This document shows positions 2,602 through 15,118 of a stretch of 64,000 nucleotides of DNA, in pieces (the first letter of the stretch is position 1; the number at the start of each line of letters is the position of its first letter). The position numbers and the translations under genes are program-made. The notes under the pieces are model-generated. The model searched no databases. It was not told where the DNA came from and saw only the letters and a program-made list of their open reading frames with translations. This DNA comes from Oceaniglobus trochenteri (GTDB lineage: Bacteria; Pseudomonadota; Alphaproteobacteria; Rhodobacterales; Rhodobacteraceae): the NCBI RefSeq assembly GCF_020529025.1, contig NZ_JACNMM010000009.1, positions 1-64,000 on the forward strand, read 5' to 3'.

Positions 2602-4041
<1,440 letters not shown>

Positions 4042-4051
4042 ACCCCATGCC

Positions 4052-5047
4052 TCAGGCCGTTCCGCGCAGGGTCAGCGTCGCTGCGCGGGGCGGCATCGGC
4101 CTTGCGGGTTCGCCCGCAAGGATGCTGTCGGCCAGCGCGACGGCATCCGCCGTCAGGTCGGCGACGGGCAGGGCGATGGTTGTCACGCCGCCGCTGATAT
4201 ATCGATAGAATGACGGATCGCCGTAGCCGACAAAGGCGAGTTCGGTCGGCATGGCGATGCCGCGGGTCAGCACCACGTCAAGCGCGCCATCGGAAATCTC
4301 GAAACCGCCGCAGACCAGGGCGTCGGGCCCCGCGTCCTCCAGCAAGGAGGCCACCGAAGCGGCACCCATCCTGAACGAGGGCCGCGCCGTGCGGATTAAG
4401 GCGTCCGAGGGCGCAAGCCCGGCCTGCTGCATCCCCGCGACATAGGCGCCAAGACGCGATCTGCCCGAGGAAAACCCGTGTGGCGCCCCGATATAGGCGA
4501 TTCGCCGGCAGCCGCGCCGCGCCAGATGCGCCACCGCCTGACGGATCGCGGCTGCATCGTCCAGATCAAGGCTTGCGGTCTCGACCGGTTCGTCCCGGTG
4601 CCGGATCATCTGGATCACCTGCATGCCGTCCAGCGGCACGCGGTCGTTCAGGGTGTCGTCGCGCGGGCTGGGCACCGTTACCACCGCCCTGACCTGAAGC
4701 GCGCGCAGCCGTCGCAGGGCGGCCTGTTCCTTGACCTCGGAATCGTCGGTCAGGTGGATGACCGGGTCGATCCCCCTTTCGCTGCACAGGGCGGCAAAAT
4801 CATTGGCAAATCGGGCATAGAAGGCGTTCGAGAGGTTCGGGAGCAGCAGCCCGATGATCCGCGAACCTTCGCCCCGCATGGCCGTGGCGGCGGCGCTTTT
4901 GACATAGCCCAGGGCGCGGGCGTGGTCGCTGACAAGGCGGCGGGTTTCGGCGCTGACGTTGGGGTGCCCCGACAGCGCCCGCGACACCGTCATATGCGAG
5001 ATGCCAAGATCCCCGGCAATGGTCTTGATCGTCACCTTCGCCGCCAA
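4052..5047 (-). CDS. LacI-family transcriptional regulator of the divergent kinase-enolase-SDR operon
   Basis: The N-terminus has a LacI helix-turn-helix (VTIKTIAGDLGISHMTVSRAL) and hinge, and the remainder is a periplasmic-binding-protein-like sensor domain with segments such as IIGLLLPNLSNAFYA and IAYIGAPHGFSSG. I prefer the TTG at 5047, which has an AAGGA site upstream and gives the usual short LacI leader (331 residues). A GTG at 5077 would add ten residues. It is divergent from the operon beginning at 5149, with a perfect 14-bp palindrome between them, so local repression relieved by a sugar-like ligand is likely. The ligand is unknown. Confidence 0.9.
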   Translation of the reverse strand: MAAKVTIKTIAGDLGISHMTVSRALSGHPNVSAETRRLVSDHARALGYVKSAAATAMRGEGSRIIGLLLPNLSNAFYARFANDFAALCSERGIDPVIHLTDDSEVKEQAALRRLRALQVRAVVTVPSPRDDTLNDRVPLDGMQVIQMIRHRDEPVETASLDLDDAAAIRQAVAHLARRGCRRIAYIGAPHGFSSGRSRLGAYVAGMQQAGLAPSDALIRTARPSFRMGAASVASLLEDAGPDALVCGGFEISDGALDVVLTRGIAMPTELAFVGYGDPSFYRYISGGVTTIALPVADLTADAVALADSILAGEPARPMPPRAATLTLRGTA

Positions 5048-5112
5048 ATGCGTTTTCCTTTCCCAGGCCAAAAACACTGCGCTGTTGACAGGCTTTGCTG
5101 TTCAACCCTATT

Positions 5113-5126
5113 TGTTCACGTGAACA
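5113..5126. promoter_or_regulatory. Probable LacI-type operator, perfect 14-bp palindrome
   Basis: TGTTCACGTGAACA reads the same on both strands with a central CG. That is the form of LacI/PurR-class operators. It lies 22 bases before the GTG of the kinase gene and 65 bases before the start of the divergent LacI-family gene. Binding there would block transcription of the operon and could autoregulate the repressor. No other copy was noticed in the window. Confidence 0.7.
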
Positions 5127-5148
5127 TAGGCAACATGGAACCGAATTC

Positions 5149-6153
5149 GTGGCGAAGGAACTGGAAGAACGCTGTCGCCGGCTGGTGGGCGAACTTGGCC
5201 TTGGCGCGCCCGAAGCCGTGTCGGCGGTGGTGCCGCTGACGGGCGGGGTGGCTTCGGATATTGCGCGGGTCGATCTGGATGGGCGGCGCTATTGCGTCAA
5301 GTTCGCGTTGGCCAAGCTGAAGGTGGCCGAAGACTGGCGCGCGCCGGTGCATCGCAACAAGGCCGAATATGACTGGCTTTGTGTTGCGGACAAGGTTGCG
5401 CCCGGATCGGTGCCCGCTCTGCACGGCCGTTCCGAAAGCGAGAACGGCTTCGCCATGGAGTTTCTGGACGGGGCGGGGGTTCGGCTGTGGAAGGCCGACC
5501 TTCTGACCGAAACGCCGCGCCCCGAGGATGCCATGGCGGTCGGTGACGTGCTGGGACGTATCCACGCGGCCAGCACCACGAAGGGTTTTGATCGCACCCC
5601 CTTCCACAACCGCGACGATTTCAGGGCGCTGCGCATCGACCCCTACCTGGGGTTCACCGCCACGCGCCACCCCGAACTGGCCGCCCGGCTGGGGACGCTG
5701 TCGGACATGCTCTATGCTGCCGATCAGGTTCTTATTCATGGCGACATCAGCCCCAAGAACATCCTTTTCCGCGTCTCCGTGCCGATCCTGCTGGATGCCG
5801 AATGTGCGACCATGGGCGATCCCTGTTTCGACGTGGCCTTTTGCCTCAATCACCTGGTGCTGAAATCGCTCCATCGCCCCGAATGGCGCGACCGGCTGAT
5901 CGACATGGCGCGCCGGTTCTGGGCCGCCTATGCCGCCCATGTCACATGGGAAACCCGGGGCGATCTGGACCAACGGGTCGCGGCCCTGCTGCCGGCGCTG
6001 ATGCTGGCGCGGGTCGATGGCAAGTCGCCGGTCGAATACCTTGATGCGGGCGCTCAGGACAGGGTGCGCGCCCTGGCCATCCCCGCGATCCGCACGCCGC
6101 CGGAAACCCTTTCGGCCCTTTTGGATACCTTGCAGAAAACAGAGGCGACATGA
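5149..6153 (+). CDS. APH/choline-kinase-fold phosphotransferase in a putative catabolic operon
   Basis: The 334-residue protein is of the aminoglycoside/choline kinase fold. The catalytic loop HGDISPKN is at about residues 197-204, and the metal-binding segment LLDAECATMGDPCFDVAF follows. The N-lobe has GGVASDIARVDLDGRRYCVKF with the ATP-site Lys. I chose GTG 5149 because the longer frame from 5095 would read through the operator palindrome. The stop overlaps the enolase-like ATG by 4 bases. Chromosomal members of this fold phosphorylate small alcohols, amino alcohols or sugars. Here the operon partners suggest a hydroxy-acid or sugar-derived substrate rather than an antibiotic. The substrate is unknown. 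Confidence 0.8.
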   Translation: MAKELEERCRRLVGELGLGAPEAVSAVVPLTGGVASDIARVDLDGRRYCVKFALAKLKVAEDWRAPVHRNKAEYDWLCVADKVAPGSVPALHGRSESENGFAMEFLDGAGVRLWKADLLTETPRPEDAMAVGDVLGRIHAASTTKGFDRTPFHNRDDFRALRIDPYLGFTATRHPELAARLGTLSDMLYAADQVLIHGDISPKNILFRVSVPILLDAECATMGDPCFDVAFCLNHLVLKSLHRPEWRDRLIDMARRFWAAYAAHVTWETRGDLDQRVAALLPALMLARVDGKSPVEYLDAGAQDRVRALAIPAIRTPPETLSALLDTLQKTEAT

Positions 6154-7451
6154 GCACAGCCACGATCACCGACATCACCGCCCGGCGCGTCTGGGATTCC
6201 CGCGGCCATCCCACGGTCGAGGCCGAGGTTCACCTCTCCGATGGCGCCGTGGGCCGCGCGCTGGCCCCGGCCGGTGCCTCGCGGGGCACGCGCGAAGCGG
6301 TCGATCTGCGCGATCCGGACAACGGTATCCGTGGTGGCGATGTGGCGGGGGCCGTGGCCAATGTGACCGGCCCGATTGCCGAGGCGCTGAAAGGCCATGA
6401 CGTGACGGCGCAGGAAGAGATCGACGACAGGCTGATCGCCCTTGACGGCACGCCGTTGAAATCCTCGCTTGGGGGCAACGCCATGGTGGCGACCTCGCTG
6501 GCGGTGCTGCATGCGGCGGCGGCTTCGGCGGGTGTGCCGCTGTGGCGCCATGTCGCTGACCACTATGGCACGACGCCCACCATGCCCCTGCCCGAGATCC
6601 AGATCTTCGGGGGCGGCGCCCATGCCGGGCGTCGGGTGGATATCCAGGACTTCATGGTCATGGTCCCCGGCGCCGAAAGCTTCGACGAGGCGCTTGAGAT
6701 CACCTCGCGCGTCTATTTCGCTGCGGGCGACATCATGGCCAAGCGGGGCCACCTGGCCGGCGTGGCCGACGAAGGCGGCTGGTGGCCGGTCTTCGACAGC
6801 AACGAACAGGCGCTGGAAACGCTGGTCCGCGCCATCGAGGCGGCGGGCGAGGTGCCGGGCGAACGTGTGGTCATCTCACTCGACATCGCGGCGTCCGAGT
6901 TCGGCAGCAAGGGGCGCTATCGCCTGGCGCTGGAAGATCGCGACATGGACACCGACGCCATGATCGCCATGCTGGACAGCTGGATCGCGCGCTTCCCCAT
7001 CGCCTCGATCGAAGACCCCCTGGCCGAGGATGACCCCGCAGGCATGGCCGCCTTTACCCGCGCCTATGGTGAAAAGGTGCAGATCATCGGCGACGATTAC
7101 CTTGTCACCAACGCCGGGCTGGTCAGGGCGGCGGCGGGCGGTAATGCCTGCAACGCTGTGCTGCTCAAAGCGAACCAGGCGGGCACGGTGACCGAAACGA
7201 TCCGCACCCAGCAGGCGGCGCGCCAGCACGGGTTCGGGACGGTGGTTTCCGCCCGCTCGGGCGAAACCGAGGATGTGTCGATCAGCCATCTGGCTGCGGG
7301 CCTCGGGGCCGGGCAGCTGAAGGTCGGATCGTTCAGCCGGTCCGAGAGGATGGCAAAGTGGAACGAGTGCCTGCGCATGGAAGGTCAGCCCGGCATGGGC
7401 GATTTCGTGGGCGGCGCGCCCCTTGCGAACACATGGTGGAGCGGCAAATGA
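6150..7451 (+). CDS. Enolase paralogue with altered active site, probably not the glycolytic enzyme
   Basis: The 433-residue protein aligns with enolase end to end. The three Mg ligands (D245, E288, D315), the acid/base pair (E208 in DEGG, K340 in LLKANQ), K391 and H158 are all present. Several contacts differ. Loop 1 is AGASRG (41-46) instead of SGASTG, the usual INGG is IFGG, the usual QEFM is QDFM (D167), and the usual SHRSGETED is SARSGETED (A368). Known enolases convert 2-phosphoglycerate to PEP. These changes, with a LacI regulator, a kinase and an SDR, suggest dehydration of another 2-phospho-acid. A weak or second glycolytic enolase cannot be excluded. It overlaps both neighbours by 4 bases. 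Confidence 0.8.
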   Translation: MSTATITDITARRVWDSRGHPTVEAEVHLSDGAVGRALAPAGASRGTREAVDLRDPDNGIRGGDVAGAVANVTGPIAEALKGHDVTAQEEIDDRLIALDGTPLKSSLGGNAMVATSLAVLHAAAASAGVPLWRHVADHYGTTPTMPLPEIQIFGGGAHAGRRVDIQDFMVMVPGAESFDEALEITSRVYFAAGDIMAKRGHLAGVADEGGWWPVFDSNEQALETLVRAIEAAGEVPGERVVISLDIAASEFGSKGRYRLALEDRDMDTDAMIAMLDSWIARFPIASIEDPLAEDDPAGMAAFTRAYGEKVQIIGDDYLVTNAGLVRAAAGGNACNAVLLKANQAGTVTETIRTQQAARQHGFGTVVSARSGETEDVSISHLAAGLGAGQLKVGSFSRSERMAKWNECLRMEGQPGMGDFVGGAPLANTWWSGK

Positions 7452-8206
7452 GCATGAGCGGAGAGTTCGAGGGGCGGGTGGCCATCGTCACCGGTGCCGC
7501 CCGTGGCATGGGGCTGGCGGTGGCGCGTCACCTTCTGGACCAGGGCGCGCGGCTGTGCCTCTGGGATCTTGAGGAAGAGGCGCTGAACCGCGCGGCCGCC
7601 ACCCTTGGCGTGCCGTCGGACCGCCTGCGCGTCAGCGCGGTGGACGTGTCGCAGTCCGGGGCGGTGGAACAGGCCGCCGCCGACGATGCAAAGGCCATGG
7701 GGCGGATCGACATCCTGATCAACTGTGCCGGGATCGCCGGGCCCAATGCCCTGGTCGAAGCCTTCCCGCCCGATGCATGGGACAGGGTGATGCGGGTCAA
7801 CCTGGGCGGCGTGTTTCACTGCTGCCGCGCGGTGGTGCCCTTCATGCGCGAGAATGACTATGGCCGGATCGTCAACGTCGCCTCGGTGGCGGGCAAGGAG
7901 GGCAACCCCAACGCCAGCGCCTATTCGGCATCAAAGGCGGGCGTCATCAGCCTGACCAAAAGCCTGGGCAAGGAGCTGGCGACGACGGGCATCCGCGTGA
8001 ACGCGATCACCCCTGCCGTCATCAAGACCGAGATGCTGGACGATGTGACCGACGAACAGGTGGCCTACATGCTGGCGAAAATTCCCATGGGGCGCATGGG
8101 CACGGTGGACGAGGTGGCCGAAATGGCGATGTTCCTTGCGTCCGAGCGGTGTTCCTATTCAACCGCTGCCGTCTTCGACATGACGGGCGGGCGCGCCACC
8201 TACTAG
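7448..8206 (+). CDS. SDR-family NAD(P)-dependent oxidoreductase of the enolase-like operon
   Basis: This classical 252-residue short-chain dehydrogenase has the cofactor motif TGAARGMG near the N-terminus, the CAGIAG segment (NNAG position), the catalytic Ser in VNVASVAG, and YSASK with the Tyr-Lys pair. It most resembles the 3-oxoacyl-ACP reductase/sugar dehydrogenase branch, whose names often hide sugar or polyol dehydrogenases. The ATG at 7448 overlaps the enolase-like stop as ATGA. In this operon it probably oxidises or reduces the hydroxyl compound handled by the kinase and enolase homologue. The substrate is unknown. Confidence 0.85.
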   Translation: MSMSGEFEGRVAIVTGAARGMGLAVARHLLDQGARLCLWDLEEEALNRAAATLGVPSDRLRVSAVDVSQSGAVEQAAADDAKAMGRIDILINCAGIAGPNALVEAFPPDAWDRVMRVNLGGVFHCCRAVVPFMRENDYGRIVNVASVAGKEGNPNASAYSASKAGVISLTKSLGKELATTGIRVNAITPAVIKTEMLDDVTDEQVAYMLAKIPMGRMGTVDEVAEMAMFLASERCSYSTAAVFDMTGGRATY

Positions 8207-8225: not shown

Positions 8226-9107
8226 TCAGGCGGGCTGGATGAACATCCGCTCGCTCTTGCCGTTTTTCGGGCCATCGCCCCGGATGGCGCGATAGGCGTG
8301 CCAGGTGGCATGGCCCAGCACCGGAAAGGCCAGGATCAGCCCAAGGCCCAGCGTCACCACCGATGCCAGGAACAGCGCCAGGACAATGGCCCCCCAGGCC
8401 AGCATCACCGGCAGGTTGTTCCACACCATGGCCATGCTGATGCCCAGGGCCGACAGCGCGTCGGTGCGTTCGGTCAGCAGCATCGGCACCGCAAAGACGC
8501 TGATGGCAAAGGCGAAGGCGGCAAAAAGCGCGCCGACGATCCCGCCCGCCAGAAGAAGCGCCCAGCCGGTGGGCGTGAAGAACAGCATCGGCACGATTTC
8601 CGATGTGCCGGGAAAGGCGACCATGCCGAAGAACAGCGCATAGATCAGGACAGCCGCCCGCATCCACAGCAGGAACAGCCCCAGCAGAAGCACCCCCATG
8701 AACAGCCCGGCCCGCCCCGAGCGGGGCCGCACGAAGACCATCTGCAGGTATCGCGTGCTTTCACCTTTTTCCAGGCGGCGGCTTTTCTCATAAAGGCCAT
8801 TGGCGATCAGCGGCCCCAGCACCATGAAGCCGGCCAGCGCCGGAAACAGCGCATAGTCGAATTCAAGCCGGAACAGGAACCAGACCACGAAGGCCGAAAC
8901 GATGAAGACCCCGATCCCGTAAAGCAGGCTGGGCAGCGGATTTGTCCAGGTGTCCGACCATCCGGCGCGCAGCCAGTCAAAGGCGGTGCGCCAGGGCAGG
9001 TTGCGGGCGTGGCTTTTTTCGCGCGGCAGCGGCGGCACCACCTTGGGGATCACGCCATCGGCATGGGGGTTGTCGGGGGGCGGGGGGGCGGAATGATCAC
9101 TCAGCAT
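8226..9107 (-). CDS. DUF2189 multi-pass membrane protein, last gene of the cco operon
   Basis: This 293-residue protein has a cytoplasmic proline-rich N-terminus and about six TM segments, including VFIVSAFVVWFLF and the C-terminal VVTLGLGLILAFPVLGHATWHAYRA, the pattern of DUF2189. Its start overlaps the stop of the 59-residue gene upstream, which overlaps ccoP, so it is probably co-transcribed with the cbb3 oxidase genes. DUF2189 proteins have no proven function. A role in oxidase assembly or in a linked membrane process is only suggested by the operon. Confidence 0.75.
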   Translation of the reverse strand: MLSDHSAPPPPDNPHADGVIPKVVPPLPREKSHARNLPWRTAFDWLRAGWSDTWTNPLPSLLYGIGVFIVSAFVVWFLFRLEFDYALFPALAGFMVLGPLIANGLYEKSRRLEKGESTRYLQMVFVRPRSGRAGLFMGVLLLGLFLLWMRAAVLIYALFFGMVAFPGTSEIVPMLFFTPTGWALLLAGGIVGALFAAFAFAISVFAVPMLLTERTDALSALGISMAMVWNNLPVMLAWGAIVLALFLASVVTLGLGLILAFPVLGHATWHAYRAIRGDGPKNGKSERMFIQPA

Positions 9108-10319: not shown

Positions 10320-11096
10320 TCATTCTCCTCTTGCCGGTTGGGTTTCGGCGGCAACATCGGTGAGACCGCCGAGAATCTGGAGATAGGCGACAAGGGCGTC
10401 CATCTCGGTCAGCAGGTCGGTCCGCCCGTCGAAGGTGCGGATGTTGGTGGCGTCGCCATAGCGTTCGGCGACGCCATCGGCGCGGTCGGTTTCCGGGCGC
10501 GACTGACCCAGGGCATCGCTGGCGGCGTTCTCGATCTGCTCGTCGGTGTAGGGCACGCCCACCGTGCGCAGGGCGGCAAGCCGGTCGGGCAGGCTGGCGG
10601 TTTCCAGCTGTGTCTCAAGCAGGAAGGCATATTGCGGCATCACCGATTCCGGCACCAGGTCGCGCGGATCGACAAGGTGGCGCACCTGCCAGTCGTCCGA
10701 GTATTTCTCGCCCACGCGGGCCAGATCGGGGCCCGTCCGCTTCGACCCCCAGAGCATGGGGTGATCGTACTGCGATTCGACGGCCAGCGAATAGGGGCCG
10801 TAACGATCGACCTCGTCCTGAAGGCTGCGGATCATCTGGCTATGGCAGGCATAGCAACCTTCGCGGATGTAGATGTCGCGCCCGGCCTGTTCCAGCGGGG
10901 TATAGACCCGCATGTCGGGCGCTGCCTCGACCGTGTCGTCGATGGTGAACAGCGGTGCGATCTCGACGATGCCACCGACACTGGCGGCGGCGATGATGCC
11001 GATGGTCAGGGCCATGGAATGCCGCTCGGCGCGGTAATGGGTCTTGGCCTGGAATTCGAACAGGCGGGCGAAGGGAGACAAGAGTTTGCGCCACAT
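10320..11096 (-). CDS. ccoO: cbb3-type cytochrome c oxidase subunit II (monoheme cytochrome c)
   Basis: This 258-residue protein has an N-terminal TM anchor (about residues 30-50) and the heme c motif CYACH (81-85), with family segments YGPYSLAVESQYDHPMLWGS and GPDLARVGEKYSDDW. The start at 11096 (MWRKLL) is the conserved CcoO-type beginning, and longer frames upstream run into ccoN. CcoO carries electrons from CcoP to the catalytic subunit. It lies 4 bases after ccoN. Confidence 0.95.
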   Translation of the reverse strand: MWRKLLSPFARLFEFQAKTHYRAERHSMALTIGIIAAASVGGIVEIAPLFTIDDTVEAAPDMRVYTPLEQAGRDIYIREGCYACHSQMIRSLQDEVDRYGPYSLAVESQYDHPMLWGSKRTGPDLARVGEKYSDDWQVRHLVDPRDLVPESVMPQYAFLLETQLETASLPDRLAALRTVGVPYTDEQIENAASDALGQSRPETDRADGVAERYGDATNIRTFDGRTDLLTEMDALVAYLQILGGLTDVAAETQPARGE

Positions 11097-11100
11097 GATC

Positions 11101-12753
11101 CTATTCTCCTGCGGGTACGGCGGGCTCGGCCGCTTCGGAGTTGGTGGGATAGTCGAGATGGGGCGCATGGTCGGGCACCCTGCGGATGGTCATCACGACG
11201 TTGTAAAGCGCCAGGACGGCCCCCGCGAGGAACAGCGCCCCGCCGGCCGCACGCGCGATGTAATAGGGGTGCATGGCCACCAGCGTGTCGGTGAAGGAAT
11301 AGGCCAGGGTGCCGCTTTCGGTATAGGTACGCCACATCAACCCCTGGGTGATGCCACTGTTCCACATGGCGAAAACGTAGATCACCGTCCCCGACAGGGC
11401 GAGCCAGAAGTGCCATTCGACCAGCTTCCAGGAATACATCGTCTTCTTGCGCCACAGCACCGGCGTCAGCGCATAGATCGACCCGAAAGTGATCAGCGCG
11501 ACCCAGCCCATGGCCCCGGCGTGAACATGGCCCACGGTCCAGTCGGTGTAATGCGACAGCGAGTTCACGGCGCGCACGGCCATGAACGACCCCTCGAAGG
11601 TGGACAGGCCATAGAAGACCGCCGCCACCATCATGAAGCGCAGCGTGGCATCGTCACGCACCTTTCCCCAGGCGCCGTTCAGCGTCATCAGGGCGTTGCC
11701 CGCACTGGCCCAGCTGGGAATCAGCAGCATCACCGAAAAGGTCATGCCAAGGGTCTGCACCCACTGGGGCAGGGCGGTGTAGTGCAGGTGGTGCGACCCC
11801 ACCCAGATGTAGAAGAACACGATGCCCCAGAACGACAGGATCGACAGCCGGTAGGAATAGATCGGCCGCTCGGCCCGCTTGGGCAGGAAGTAATACAGCA
11901 TCCCCAGAAAGCCGGTGGTCAGGAAGAAGGCCACGGCGTTGTGCCCGTACCACCACTGCGTCATGGCGTCCTGCACCCCCGAGAATAGGGAATAGCTTTT
12001 CGCGCCCCCCCACGACGCCGGCACCGCCAGGTTGTTGACGATATGCAGGATGGCAACCACCAGGATGAACGACATGTAGTACCAATTGGCCACATAGATG
12101 TGGGGTTCGTTCCGGCGGGCCAGGGTGCGCATGTAAAGGATGAAATAGACGACCCAGACAATCACCAGCCAGATGTCGGCATACCATTCCGGTTCGGCGT
12201 ATTCCTTGGACTGGGTGACCCCCATGATATAGCCGCTGGCGGCCACGATGCAGAACAGGTTGAAGCCCAGCAGGACGAACCAGGGTGAAACCTGACCGGC
12301 CAGACGTGCGCGGCTGGTGCGCTGCATGACATGGAAAGACGTGGCAATCAGGGCATTGCCCCCGAAGCCGAAGATCACCCCCGAGGTATGCACCGGGCGG
12401 ATGCGCCCAAAGCTGGACCAGGCGGCATCGAACCGCAGGTCGGGCCAGGCCAGCTGTGCCGCCACCCAGACGCCCATGCCCATGCCGACCACCGCCCAGA
12501 GAAGCGCGATGACGATGCCCACTTTCGTGGGGTCGTCATAATAGCTCATGGTGCGGTCTTCGGTCGGTTCCGGGTCGTCAAGCGCCCGCATGGCGACCAC
12601 CAGGATCACCGCGGCAAAAAGCACGACGATCCAGCCGTGAACGCCCATCGGGTCGCCGTGCCCCGCTGCGGCCAGAAGGAAGCCGGCCAGCAGGACAAGA
12701 CCGGAGAGGATCATGGCAAGCTGCCGCTCGCCGCTTTTCAGTTGCGTCATCAA
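11101..12753 (-). CDS. ccoN: cbb3-type cytochrome c oxidase catalytic subunit I
   Basis: The 550-residue multi-span heme-copper oxidase subunit has the CcoN landmarks IRPVHTSGVIFGFGGN and SFHVMQR near the start, a His-rich metal site region (WWYGHNAVAFFLTTGF) and the HLHYTALP and HVHAGAMGWV segments. These supply ligands for heme b, heme b3 and CuB. It reduces oxygen to water with proton pumping and a high oxygen affinity. The N-terminus has extra TM segments before the core. Its ATG overlaps the ccoS stop by 4 bases. Confidence 0.95.
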   Translation of the reverse strand: MMTQLKSGERQLAMILSGLVLLAGFLLAAAGHGDPMGVHGWIVVLFAAVILVVAMRALDDPEPTEDRTMSYYDDPTKVGIVIALLWAVVGMGMGVWVAAQLAWPDLRFDAAWSSFGRIRPVHTSGVIFGFGGNALIATSFHVMQRTSRARLAGQVSPWFVLLGFNLFCIVAASGYIMGVTQSKEYAEPEWYADIWLVIVWVVYFILYMRTLARRNEPHIYVANWYYMSFILVVAILHIVNNLAVPASWGGAKSYSLFSGVQDAMTQWWYGHNAVAFFLTTGFLGMLYYFLPKRAERPIYSYRLSILSFWGIVFFYIWVGSHHLHYTALPQWVQTLGMTFSVMLLIPSWASAGNALMTLNGAWGKVRDDATLRFMMVAAVFYGLSTFEGSFMAVRAVNSLSHYTDWTVGHVHAGAMGWVALITFGSIYALTPVLWRKKTMYSWKLVEWHFWLALSGTVIYVFAMWNSGITQGLMWRTYTESGTLAYSFTDTLVAMHPYYIARAAGGALFLAGAVLALYNVVMTIRRVPDHAPHLDYPTNSEAAEPAVPAGE

Positions 12754-12947
12754 CGGTCGGTTTCCTTGTGTTTGCGGTTCGTCGCCCGCCCCTTGGGGGC
12801 AAGTGGCCGGTCGTCGGCATAAAGGATGCGTTCGGCATCGCCGGACATGTCATCGTATTGGTCGGCGCGCAGGCTCCACAGAAAGGCGGCGACGCCGACG
12901 GCGCCCATGGCCAGCGAAACGGGGATCAGGACGATCAGGATGCTCAT
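12750..12947 (-). CDS. ccoS: cbb3 oxidase assembly protein CcoS
   Basis: The 65-residue protein starts MSILIVLIPVSLAMGAVGVAAFLWSLRADQYDD, the characteristic CcoS/FixS pattern of one TM span followed by QYDD and a short tail. CcoS is needed for insertion of the redox cofactors into cbb3 oxidase. It overlaps ccoI upstream (start at 12947 against the ccoI stop at 12944) and ccoN downstream, so the assembly and structural genes form one transcription unit here. Confidence 0.9.
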   Translation of the reverse strand: MSILIVLIPVSLAMGAVGVAAFLWSLRADQYDDMSGDAERILYADDRPLAPKGRATNRKHKETDR

Positions 12948-15118
12948 GCCGGCGCCTCCTTCACGGACTTGGACGGTGCCTCGGGCGTGCCGGTTCCGGC
13001 AGCCCGGTTCAGCCGCAGTGAATTGGCGACAACCAGGATCGAACTCGACGACATGGCGATCGCGGCAATCAGTGGGGTCACATAGCCTGCTACGGCCAGC
13101 GGAATGGCGATGCAGTTGTAGACCACGGCAAGGCCGAAGTTCTGGCGCACGATCCGCGCCGTTTGCCGGGCCACCTCCAGCGCGGTGGGCACCGCCGCCA
13201 GGCCCGGGCGCAGGAACACGAAGTCGGCGGCGGCGCGCCCGGCATCGGTGGCGCTGGCCGGGGACATGGACACATGGGCGGCGGCAAGGGCCGGGGTGTC
13301 GTTCAACCCGTCCCCCACCATCAGAACCCGGTGCCCGGCGTCGTCCAGCGCCTGGAGATGTGCGACCTTTCCGGCAGGCGTCAGCCCGTGATGGCAGGCC
13401 AGATCGCCCAGTTGCCGGGCCATGGCCGCGACGGGGCGCTCTCCGTCGCCCGAGATGATCTCGCAGATCAGGCCCTTGTCGCGCAGGCTGTCCATGGCCT
13501 GCTCGGCACCCTGGCGCAGTGTCTCGCTCAGCGGAATGCGCAGCATGTCGCCACCCTCGAACGCGAAGGCCGGCCCGTCGCCATCGCGCGGGGCCAGGGC
13601 GATCTCGGCCACCCAGGCGGCGCGCCCCAGGCGAACCAGGCGACCGTCCTCCAGCCGTCCTTCGACGCCAAAGCCCGGCCTTTCGGCGGTGTCCGTCACC
13701 AGGGTGCCGGACCAGGGCAGGCCCGCCGCGATGGCACGGGCGGCGGGGTGGGTCGATCCGGCGGCAAGGGCCGCAAGGGCGCCGGGCAGGTTCGCGCCGC
13801 CACCTGCCATCTCGGTCCCTTCGCTGAGCGTGCCGGTCTTGTCGAAGGCGATGTGATCGACCTGGGCCAGCCGCTCCAGCGCCGAACCGTCCTTCATCAG
13901 GATGCCGTCGCGCATCAGCCGCCCTGCGGCCACCACATGGGCCACGGGAACGGCAAGGGCCAGGGCGCAGGGGCAGGTGACGATCAGCACGCTGATGGCC
14001 ACGAAGGCCGACGTCTGCCAATCGCCGCTTGCAAAGACCCAGCCAAGGAACGTGGCCGCGGCCAGGATGTGGATGACCGGCGCATAGAACCGCGCGACGC
14101 GGTCGGCAATGCGCACATAGCGCCCGCGCCCCTCTTCGGCGGTGGCCAGCATCCTTGTCATGTCGGCCACGAAGGATTCGCTGACCGGGCGCAGCGCCAG
14201 CACGTCGACCGGGCCGGTGATGTTCAGCGCGCCTGCCTCGATCTCGTCATCCGGCCCGGCGCTGACGGGCAGCGATTCGCCCGTGACAAGGGCGCGGTCC
14301 AGGTCGGTGCTGCCGCGCAGGATGCGCGCGTCGACAGGCATCCGTTCGCCCGGCGGAATGCGCAGAACCATGTCGGGCCGGATATCGGCCGAGGCCACCT
14401 TGTGCGTCGTTCCGTCGGGGCGCAGTTCAAGGGCGTCCTTCACCGTCAGCTTGGCAAGGCCCGCCATGGCATTGCGCGCCTTGCAGCGCATCCGGTGATC
14501 CAGATAGCGGCCGATCAGAAGGAAGAAGGTCAGGGTGAGGGCGGCGTCGAAGAACACCTCGGCCCCGCCACGCAGGGTTTCAAAGACGCTCAGCACCAGC
14601 GCCAGCAGAAGCGCCAGCGCGATGGGAACATCCATGTTCATCCGCCCTTGGCGCAGCGCACCCCAGGCCGAGACAAAGAAGAAGCGCCCGGAATAAAGGA
14701 TGATCGGCACCGCGATCATGCCCGAAAGCACATGCAGGATGTCGCGCATCGCGCCATCCGCCCCGGCCCAGACCGACACCGACATCAGCATGACGTTCAT
14801 CGCGCCGAATCCGGCAATCGCCACCCCCCGCAAAAGCGCCTGGCCGACAAGATCCTTGCCCGCGTCCTGCATGTCGGTCGCGTCGATGACGGTGGCCGGA
14901 TGGCCGATCTTCGCCAGCAGCGCCAGCAGGCTGTCGAGATCGAAGCTGGAATCCGCCGGTTGCACCTCGATCCGGCGCAACGTCAGGTTGACCCGGCTGC
15001 TGGCGACCTGGGGCACCTTGTCCAGCGCACCCTCGATCGTGGCCATGCAGCCGCCGCATCGGATGGAGGGCGCGGAAAGCGCGATCGGTCTCGCTGGGGC
15101 CTGTTCGAAAATGGACAC
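12944..15118 (-). CDS. ccoI: Copper-translocating P1B-type ATPase for cbb3 oxidase assembly
   Basis: This 724-residue heavy-metal ATPase has an N-terminal metal-binding domain (CGGC near residue 22), membrane helices with CPC (VTCPCALALAVP), the phosphorylation site DKTGT, an HP pair in STHPAAR and the hinge GDGLNDTPAL. CcoI/FixI proteins export copper to the periplasm for the CuB centre of CcoN, and the adjacent ccoS and ccoN confirm this role over general copper detoxification. It is the first gene of the operon. Normally ccoGHIS lies downstream of ccoNOQP, so its position here is unusual. Confidence 0.93.
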   Translation of the reverse strand: MSIFEQAPARPIALSAPSIRCGGCMATIEGALDKVPQVASSRVNLTLRRIEVQPADSSFDLDSLLALLAKIGHPATVIDATDMQDAGKDLVGQALLRGVAIAGFGAMNVMLMSVSVWAGADGAMRDILHVLSGMIAVPIILYSGRFFFVSAWGALRQGRMNMDVPIALALLLALVLSVFETLRGGAEVFFDAALTLTFFLLIGRYLDHRMRCKARNAMAGLAKLTVKDALELRPDGTTHKVASADIRPDMVLRIPPGERMPVDARILRGSTDLDRALVTGESLPVSAGPDDEIEAGALNITGPVDVLALRPVSESFVADMTRMLATAEEGRGRYVRIADRVARFYAPVIHILAAATFLGWVFASGDWQTSAFVAISVLIVTCPCALALAVPVAHVVAAGRLMRDGILMKDGSALERLAQVDHIAFDKTGTLSEGTEMAGGGANLPGALAALAAGSTHPAARAIAAGLPWSGTLVTDTAERPGFGVEGRLEDGRLVRLGRAAWVAEIALAPRDGDGPAFAFEGGDMLRIPLSETLRQGAEQAMDSLRDKGLICEIISGDGERPVAAMARQLGDLACHHGLTPAGKVAHLQALDDAGHRVLMVGDGLNDTPALAAAHVSMSPASATDAGRAAADFVFLRPGLAAVPTALEVARQTARIVRQNFGLAVVYNCIAIPLAVAGYVTPLIAAIAMSSSSILVVANSLRLNRAAGTGTPEAPSKSVKEAPA

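Follow-up and report, generated by a model that had tools for sequence, protein, structure and literature searches.

Genes for an APH-fold kinase and for a paralogue of enolase, overlapping by four bases, lie in a 64,000-nucleotide stretch of Oceaniglobus trochenteri DNA (G000:C32:1-64000, hereafter the window). They are followed by a short-chain dehydrogenase/reductase (SDR) gene and are divergent from a gene for a LacI-family regulator. The kinase-paralogue unit is a real, conserved and widespread catabolic module, and its class of chemistry, described below, is likely. The module might make phosphoenolpyruvate (PEP) from a C3 hydroxy acid, L-glycerate being the most likely one; this assignment is tentative and is held with somewhat less than even confidence. 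The genes and sites of the cluster are as follows.

4052-5077, minus strand: LacI-family regulator, start at 5077, possibly 5047 from homologue comparison (Pfam LacI 36 bits, Peripla_BP_3 83 bits)
5085-5090, plus strand: TTGACA, -35-like box of a putative promoter read from the sequence, 18 bp ahead of TATTTG
5109-5114, plus strand: TATTTG, overlapping the palindrome
5113-5126, no strand: perfect 14-bp palindrome TGTTCACGTGAACA, predicted LacI operator, recurring in loci with a divergent LacI gene
5149-6153, plus strand: APH-fold kinase, 334 aa, GTG start (Pfam APH 68 bits)
6150-7451, plus strand: enolase paralogue, 433 aa (Pfam Enolase_N and Enolase_C; TIGR01060 449 bits)
7251-7253, plus strand: codon of Ala368, aligned with yeast enolase His373 (Ala or Gly in 82/82 paralogues)
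7448-8206, plus strand: SDR (Pfam adh_short; best PDB sequence match 6D9Y)

The first-pass annotation had described a LacI gene divergent from three genes, each overlapping the next by 4 bases, and a perfect palindrome in between. This layout was confirmed on the sequence, where both the kinase/paralogue and the paralogue/SDR junctions read ATGA, and its fold assignments (LacI/Peripla_BP, APH, Enolase_N/C and adh_short in Pfam) were also correct. An alternative kinase reading frame from a TTG at 5095 is longer and would cross the palindrome. The annotation knew no described pathway with this gene set; none was found in the open-access literature searched, where no kinase-enolase pair came up either.

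Enolase paralogue and its active site

Enolase proper is usually regarded as a one-function enzyme. The paralogue passes the TIGR01060 model (448.9 bits; cut-off 300), and therefore automatic annotation tends to name it phosphopyruvate hydratase. The possibility that it is the sole enolase of the organism, raised in the first-pass annotation, was ruled out, since a separate canonical enolase of 678 bits is encoded on another contig (G000:C27:221087-222343). The two proteins are about 41% identical. In a phylum sample, 60 of 60 genomes had an enolase above the cut-off, with best scores of at least 637 bits.

A phylogenetic tree was reconstructed from 82 paralogues and 30 canonical enolases, L021 and L049 being left out of this comparison, and the canonical set fell on one side of a branch with an SH-aLRT support of 99. 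One long row, L082, was placed between the canonical and paralogue sets. The enolase set used with the adjacency analysis comprised 84 sequences longer than 300 aa; L075, a split call, was excluded.

The active sites were compared in yeast enolase numbering, and residue roles follow that enzyme. The Mg ligands (Asp246, Glu295 and Asp320) and the catalytic residues Lys345 and Glu211 are identical in all 82 paralogues and all 30 canonical enolases, and the same is true of His159, Ser39, Arg374, Ser375 and Lys396. Two residues that are invariant in the canonical set (30/30) are replaced in every paralogue: Glu168 is Asp in 82/82, and His373 is Ala in 77 and Gly in 5. Further near-fixed changes, each found in 81/82 paralogues, are Ala to Trp at the second residue past the DEGG motif, Gly to Ala before this motif, Asn to Gln and Asn to Gly just ahead of His159, and Thr to Val after Lys396. 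A loop-2 position that is variable among canonical enolases is Arg in 81/82 paralogues; Thr40 is replaced by Arg in 60 and kept in 18. The paralogue thus shares the fold family and the metal and catalytic residues of enolase, whereas it forms a separate clade and lacks Glu168 and His373. These changes may be read as an altered substrate or stereochemistry with the chemistry retained; the sequence cannot tell which.

Kinase

The kinase residues H197-G198-D199, N204 and D216-A217-E218 are invariant across 28 sequences, presumably with the usual roles of these motifs. The AlphaFold2 model of the kinase has a pLDDT of 94.3, and its nearest solved folds are 5-methylthioribose kinases with 15-17% identity. 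The TM-score (normalised by query length) ranged from 0.70 to 0.81 over the first 16 fold matches, one PsiK entry omitted. The modelled fold agrees with a kinase that acts on a hydroxyl group of a small molecule, but the substrate cannot be read from it. The 5-methylthioribose kinases share the fold, but the window kinase is not a member of that family (TIGR01767 49.1 bits; cut-off 275), and it matched no NCBIfam model above the cut-off.

Three mutually unrelated classes of glycerate kinase are named in the accessible part of PMC2063504. Classes I, II (MOFRL) and III have the activity that is proposed here, glycerate to 2-phosphoglycerate; however, the window kinase is outside them, and APH is the sole Pfam family that it matched. 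The kinase is predicted to be a 2-hydroxy-acid (glycerate) 2-kinase.

Distribution and pairing

The kinase was found in 11 of the 292 genomes of the order, this genome counted (in G021 as a fragment only), and in 10 of the 398 genomes of a phylum sample that overlaps the order set. This sample contributed six new genomes (G334, G395, G502, G524, G537 and G620). A scan of GTDB contigs revealed at least 560 stretches encoding kinase relatives at an E-value of 1e-3 or better, and 80 loci were kept. According to their records, which include metagenome-assembled genomes (MAGs), these are mostly from Alphaproteobacteria, with others from Beta- and Gammaproteobacteria, three from Acidobacteria and one from Streptomyces.

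Together with 11 other loci and the window, 92 kinase loci were compared, among which L021 and L049 are one contig. The kinase and the paralogue are on the same strand and at most 200 bases apart in 77 of the 92, with a 4-base overlap in 47. Outside these 77 are two fragments (L026 and L027), three loci cut by a contig end (L067, L077 and L079), the split call L075, three loci with the genes on opposite strands (L047, L053 and L105), two with the genes further off (L074 and L102), one with a gap of 239 (L107) and one in reversed order (L082), as well as two kinases discussed below. Of 88 loci, 83 have a paralogue call; in these the next gene encodes an FAH hydrolase in 21 loci, an SDR within 200 bases in 5 (window included), a D-2-hydroxyacid dehydrogenase in 3, and other proteins in the rest. 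The search for this neighbourhood across genomes, suggested in the first-pass annotation, showed it to be conserved.

A decayed second pair is present in the genome itself (L026/L244, G000:C14, about 11,600-13,300), beside a mannonate dehydratase gene and with FAH, SDR and ABC transporter genes nearby. Its kinase match has an internal TGA; the enolase pieces abut (profile positions 30-117 and 343-419), the middle being missing. In G334, an enolase-like gene with an intermediate score of 503 bits (G334:C1038:76451-77707) is about 8 kb from a kinase homologue (85560-86504), possibly as a separated pair. The pair in L097, a MAG contig labelled Bordetella parapertussis, is near-identical by branch length to that of the gammaproteobacterial MAG L081, and the label may be wrong. 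L065 and L066, both Rhodobacteraceae MAGs, have diverged pairs in a common neighbourhood without any probed sugar-acid enzyme class.

SDR and FAH hydrolases

The best PDB sequence match of the window SDR is 6D9Y (266 bits). This structure is a putative L-2-keto-3-deoxyrhamnonate (L-KDR) 4-dehydrogenase, L-KDRDH, with 51 and 54% identity to two L-KDR 4-dehydrogenases, and Lys209 and Arg247 are named as two basic residues of its pocket, according to the accessible text of PMC11199699. Lys211 and Arg249 of the SDR align with residues 217 and 255 of the 6D9Y chain, which are Lys209 and Arg247 only if an 8-residue tag is assumed. The similarity to 6D9Y and, with this offset, the two basic residues point to an L-KDR 4-dehydrogenase, and the SDR is predicted from sequence to be a 2-keto-3-deoxy-L-aldonate 4-dehydrogenase of the L-KDRDH type. 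The same accessible text gives L-KDFDH as active on L-2-keto-3-deoxygalactonate.

The FAH neighbour in relatives is closest to L-2,4-diketo-3-deoxyrhamnonate hydrolase (NF053535 361 bits, cut-off 500; PDB 8gsr). Three FAH homologues are encoded elsewhere in this genome, including one in a cluster of IlvD and a KDFDH-type SDR on C24 and one by the ABC transporter on C14. The C24 cluster (L240, G000:C24, about 503,000-514,000) is a compact sugar-acid cluster from which the kinase and the enolase are absent; its genes encode a D-2-hydroxyacid-dehydrogenase-like protein, FAH, IlvD, the KDFDH-type SDR, an altronate/galactarate-dehydratase-like protein and two proteins like tartronate semialdehyde reductase (TSR). 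In the accessible descriptions of known sugar-acid routes, the 4-dehydrogenase SDR and the FAH hydrolase families are common to both those routes and the relatives studied here; the relatives add xylose-dehydrogenase-like SDR, lactonase, dehydratases and an ABC transporter. The known routes end in pyruvate with lactate or glycolate, and no kinase-enolase pair is named in those descriptions.

Gene context in relatives

Gene context was compared between 69 loci of at least 15 kb and 40 control regions of 20 kb from four genomes. The fragments L026 and L027 and the single contig L021/L049, which is near L020, were dropped before the 88-locus and 69-locus counts. The probes were each drawn from a study locus, so that every count includes one self-match, mannonate dehydratase excepted. 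The FAH hydrolase was found in 21/69 loci, the window-type SDR in 21, LacI in 22, the KDFDH-type SDR in 15 and the IlvD-type dehydratase in 7, whereas none of these was found in the 40 controls; the CUT1 binding protein was found in 9/69 and 1/40. Differences were not significant for the MR-type dehydratase (3 vs 0), galactarate/altronate dehydratase (4 vs 0), lactonase (2 vs 1), TSR (2 vs 0), xylose-dehydrogenase-like SDR (4 vs 0) and mannonate dehydratase (0 vs 0).

Among the 88 loci, 22 have the FAH hydrolase; either of the two 4-dehydrogenase-type SDRs accompanies it in 21 of these 22, and the probes detect a dehydratase in 7. Two FAH loci (L028 and L056) also carry an MR-type cluster member missed by the probes, and the member in L034 is MR_MLE. 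In 27 of the 69 long loci the pair is present, but no probe for the ten enzyme classes gave a match at its threshold. The recurrence of the pair without the probed enzymes suggests a central product such as PEP, and hence glycerate as the substrate, as an argument and not a proof. In L023, the pair follows a galactarate/altronate-dehydratase-like gene (34% identical to the probe) and a TSR homologue (176 bits, below the cut-off). This layout recalls the gar genes of Escherichia coli, which include a glycerate kinase.

Operator and regulon

Among the 24 loci in which a LacI gene is divergent, the window counted and L021 and L049 (one contig) included, 23 have the palindrome TGTTCACGTGAACA, either identical or with a single mismatch; the exception is L101. 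When the 71-bp gap between LacI and the kinase was shuffled 20,000 times at the mononucleotide level, a perfect palindrome of at least 14 bp arose in 69 of the shuffles. The regulator has a LacI helix-turn-helix, and the conserved palindrome in the divergent gap is its predicted operator. The overlap of the putative promoter with the palindrome would suit a repressor site.

The window copy is the sole exact match in this genome. A scan of 21 genomes (G000 and 20 picked for having the divergent LacI arrangement) at up to one mismatch gave 37 places, 1-4 per genome, whereas the reversed pattern gave 5. Further sites are upstream of CUT1 ABC genes in G049 (by coordinates in L020) and in a remote operon of G668 (L246). 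In L034 a TRAP binding-protein gene has such a site upstream, and in G666 (L036/L249) the TctCBA carboxylate transporter is preceded by a copy with one mismatch. In L251 the kinase-enolase pair is split, and a site precedes the enolase gene. The single 1-mismatch site of this genome precedes a gene for a periplasmic binding protein, with urease-like genes alongside; those in G667:C11, G675:C5 and G670:C9 adjoin genes unrecognised as pathway members. The linked transporter that the first-pass annotation proposed to look for is found as operator-linked genes in relatives, but not directly beside the window genes.

Proposed route and alternative explanations

In the proposed route, the SDR would act on a 2-keto-3-deoxy-L-hexonate, and an unlinked FAH hydrolase, encoded elsewhere in the genome, would split the resulting 2,4-diketo acid into pyruvate and L-glycerate. 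These two steps would be the 6-hydroxy analogue of the known route from L-rhamnose or L-fucose to lactate. The kinase would then phosphorylate L-glycerate to 2-phosphoglycerate, and the enolase paralogue, in which Lys345, Glu211 and the Mg ligands are kept, would eliminate the 3-hydroxyl to give PEP. The LacI protein would repress the divergent promoter through TGTTCACGTGAACA, as its conservation suggests. The SDR and FAH families derive from L-sugar routes with lactate as the second product, and this favours the L form. A MOFRL (class II) glycerate kinase was found in 40 of the 44 kinase-bearing genomes searched (10/10 and 30/34); D-glycerate therefore already has a route in these genomes, which also favours the L form. 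The conversion of L-galactose to lactate and glycerate in mammals appears as a reference title in the accessible part of PMC13406643, and that of PMC6336799 mentions an '(unidentified) L-galactose metabolism'.

The route modifies the first-pass annotation, which had proposed a sugar-acid catabolic cluster with a kinase and a dehydrating enolase. The context and the retained catalytic residues fit this proposal, but in relatives that have a sugar-acid dehydratase, it is more likely that the pair acts on the small acid freed by the FAH hydrolase than on the sugar acid. The SDR, which had been assigned to an alcohol or keto group, is now best read as an L-KDR-type 4-dehydrogenase upstream of the kinase.

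Several observations weigh against L-glycerate as the substrate, or loosen the evidence for it. No FAH gene and no transporter adjoin the window operon, and the FAH hydrolase and sugar-acid dehydratase that together mark a Route III pathway in one locus are both absent beside the window genes. FAH homologues were found in all 12 genomes searched, including two that lack the kinase, so that their presence in a genome is unspecific; MOFRL likewise occurs in the two genomes without the kinase (12/12 searched). With His373 replaced and residue 168 shortened to Asp, a substrate that is larger at C3 could also be accommodated. No paralogue was called alongside the kinases of L084 (Streptomyces) and L104 (Acidobacteria) in the available contig DNA. 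The context loci are related and the controls come from four genomes, and therefore the p-values are too small and independence is overstated. One of the 27 loci, L098, carries an IlvD-cluster protein below the probe threshold, and the missing probed enzymes in such loci cannot prove that no other enzyme is needed. The D-2-hydroxyacid dehydrogenase was found in 8/69 loci and 0/40 controls (12/88 loci, distant relatives), which is a better fit to D-glycerate. The accessible part of PMC3031564 describes a fungal TSR that prefers D-glycerate, so that the context of L023 also points to the D form. Other glycerate kinases are 13-34% active with L-glycerate, according to the accessible part of PMC2063504, and a dedicated kinase is then not strictly needed.

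A dedicated module from D-glycerate to PEP, in which class II glycerate kinase activity and enolase chemistry are co-regulated with sugar-acid pathways, is rather unlikely. The dehydrogenase found near the pair in distant relatives is of the phosphoglycerate dehydrogenase/glyoxylate reductase type, the TSR homologue of L023 belongs to an enzyme class whose studied member prefers D-glycerate, and the TIGR01060 score of the paralogue is above the cut-off. However, the MOFRL kinase is already present in 40/44 kinase-bearing genomes searched, and an enolase of at least 637 bits in all 60 genomes of the phylum sample scored for it. The replacement of both Glu168 and His373 in all paralogues also argues against it.

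The pair might instead replace the sugar-acid dehydratase, with a C4-C6 aldonate phosphorylated at C2 and dehydrated to the enol phosphate of a 2-keto-3-deoxy acid that feeds the SDR and the FAH hydrolase; we consider this unlikely. The changes near the C3 hydroxyl and the extra Arg in loops 1 and 2 could suit a larger substrate, and 15 of the 22 FAH loci have no dehydratase by the probes. The other 7 do carry one, L028 and L056 add an MR-type member, and the 27 long loci have the pair without those SDR types or FAH; moreover, the enol phosphate would require an extra step, and the loci contained nothing recognisable for it. It is improbable that the pair acts on a different small 2,3-dihydroxy acid, such as tartrate or 2,3-dihydroxybutyrate, and forms an enol phosphate that is not PEP. 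In favour of this are the near-fixed Trp after DEGG and the new Arg residues, which alter the pocket, and the operator at carboxylate-type transporters (TctCBA and TRAP) in two relatives. However, the loci contained no recognisable enzyme for a product of this kind, and the association with FAH hydrolases and 4-dehydrogenases would be left unexplained.

Flanking genes

The genes flanking the cluster seem unrelated to it.

2686-4041, plus strand: glutamate dehydrogenase
8226-9107, minus strand: DUF2189 protein

Genes for a cbb3-type oxidase (COX1 and FixO) and an E1-E2 ATPase are also near the cluster (10320-15046, minus strand) and are apparently unrelated.

Significance

The L-glycerate reading would define a second enolase family, converting 2-phospho-L-glycerate to PEP together with a new APH-fold L-glycerate 2-kinase, and it would close the non-phosphorylative pathways of 6-hydroxy L-sugars; this wider proposal is possible but doubtful. 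Both 2-phospho-D-glycerate and 2-phospho-L-glycerate can be purchased, with sources named in the accessible part of PMC13228409. The paralogues form a clade whose active-site changes are near-fixed and which is linked to one kinase and, in many loci, to one operator; a new activity is a concrete possibility for such a clade. If the proposal is true, it would provide a fate for the glycerate freed by sugar-acid routes.

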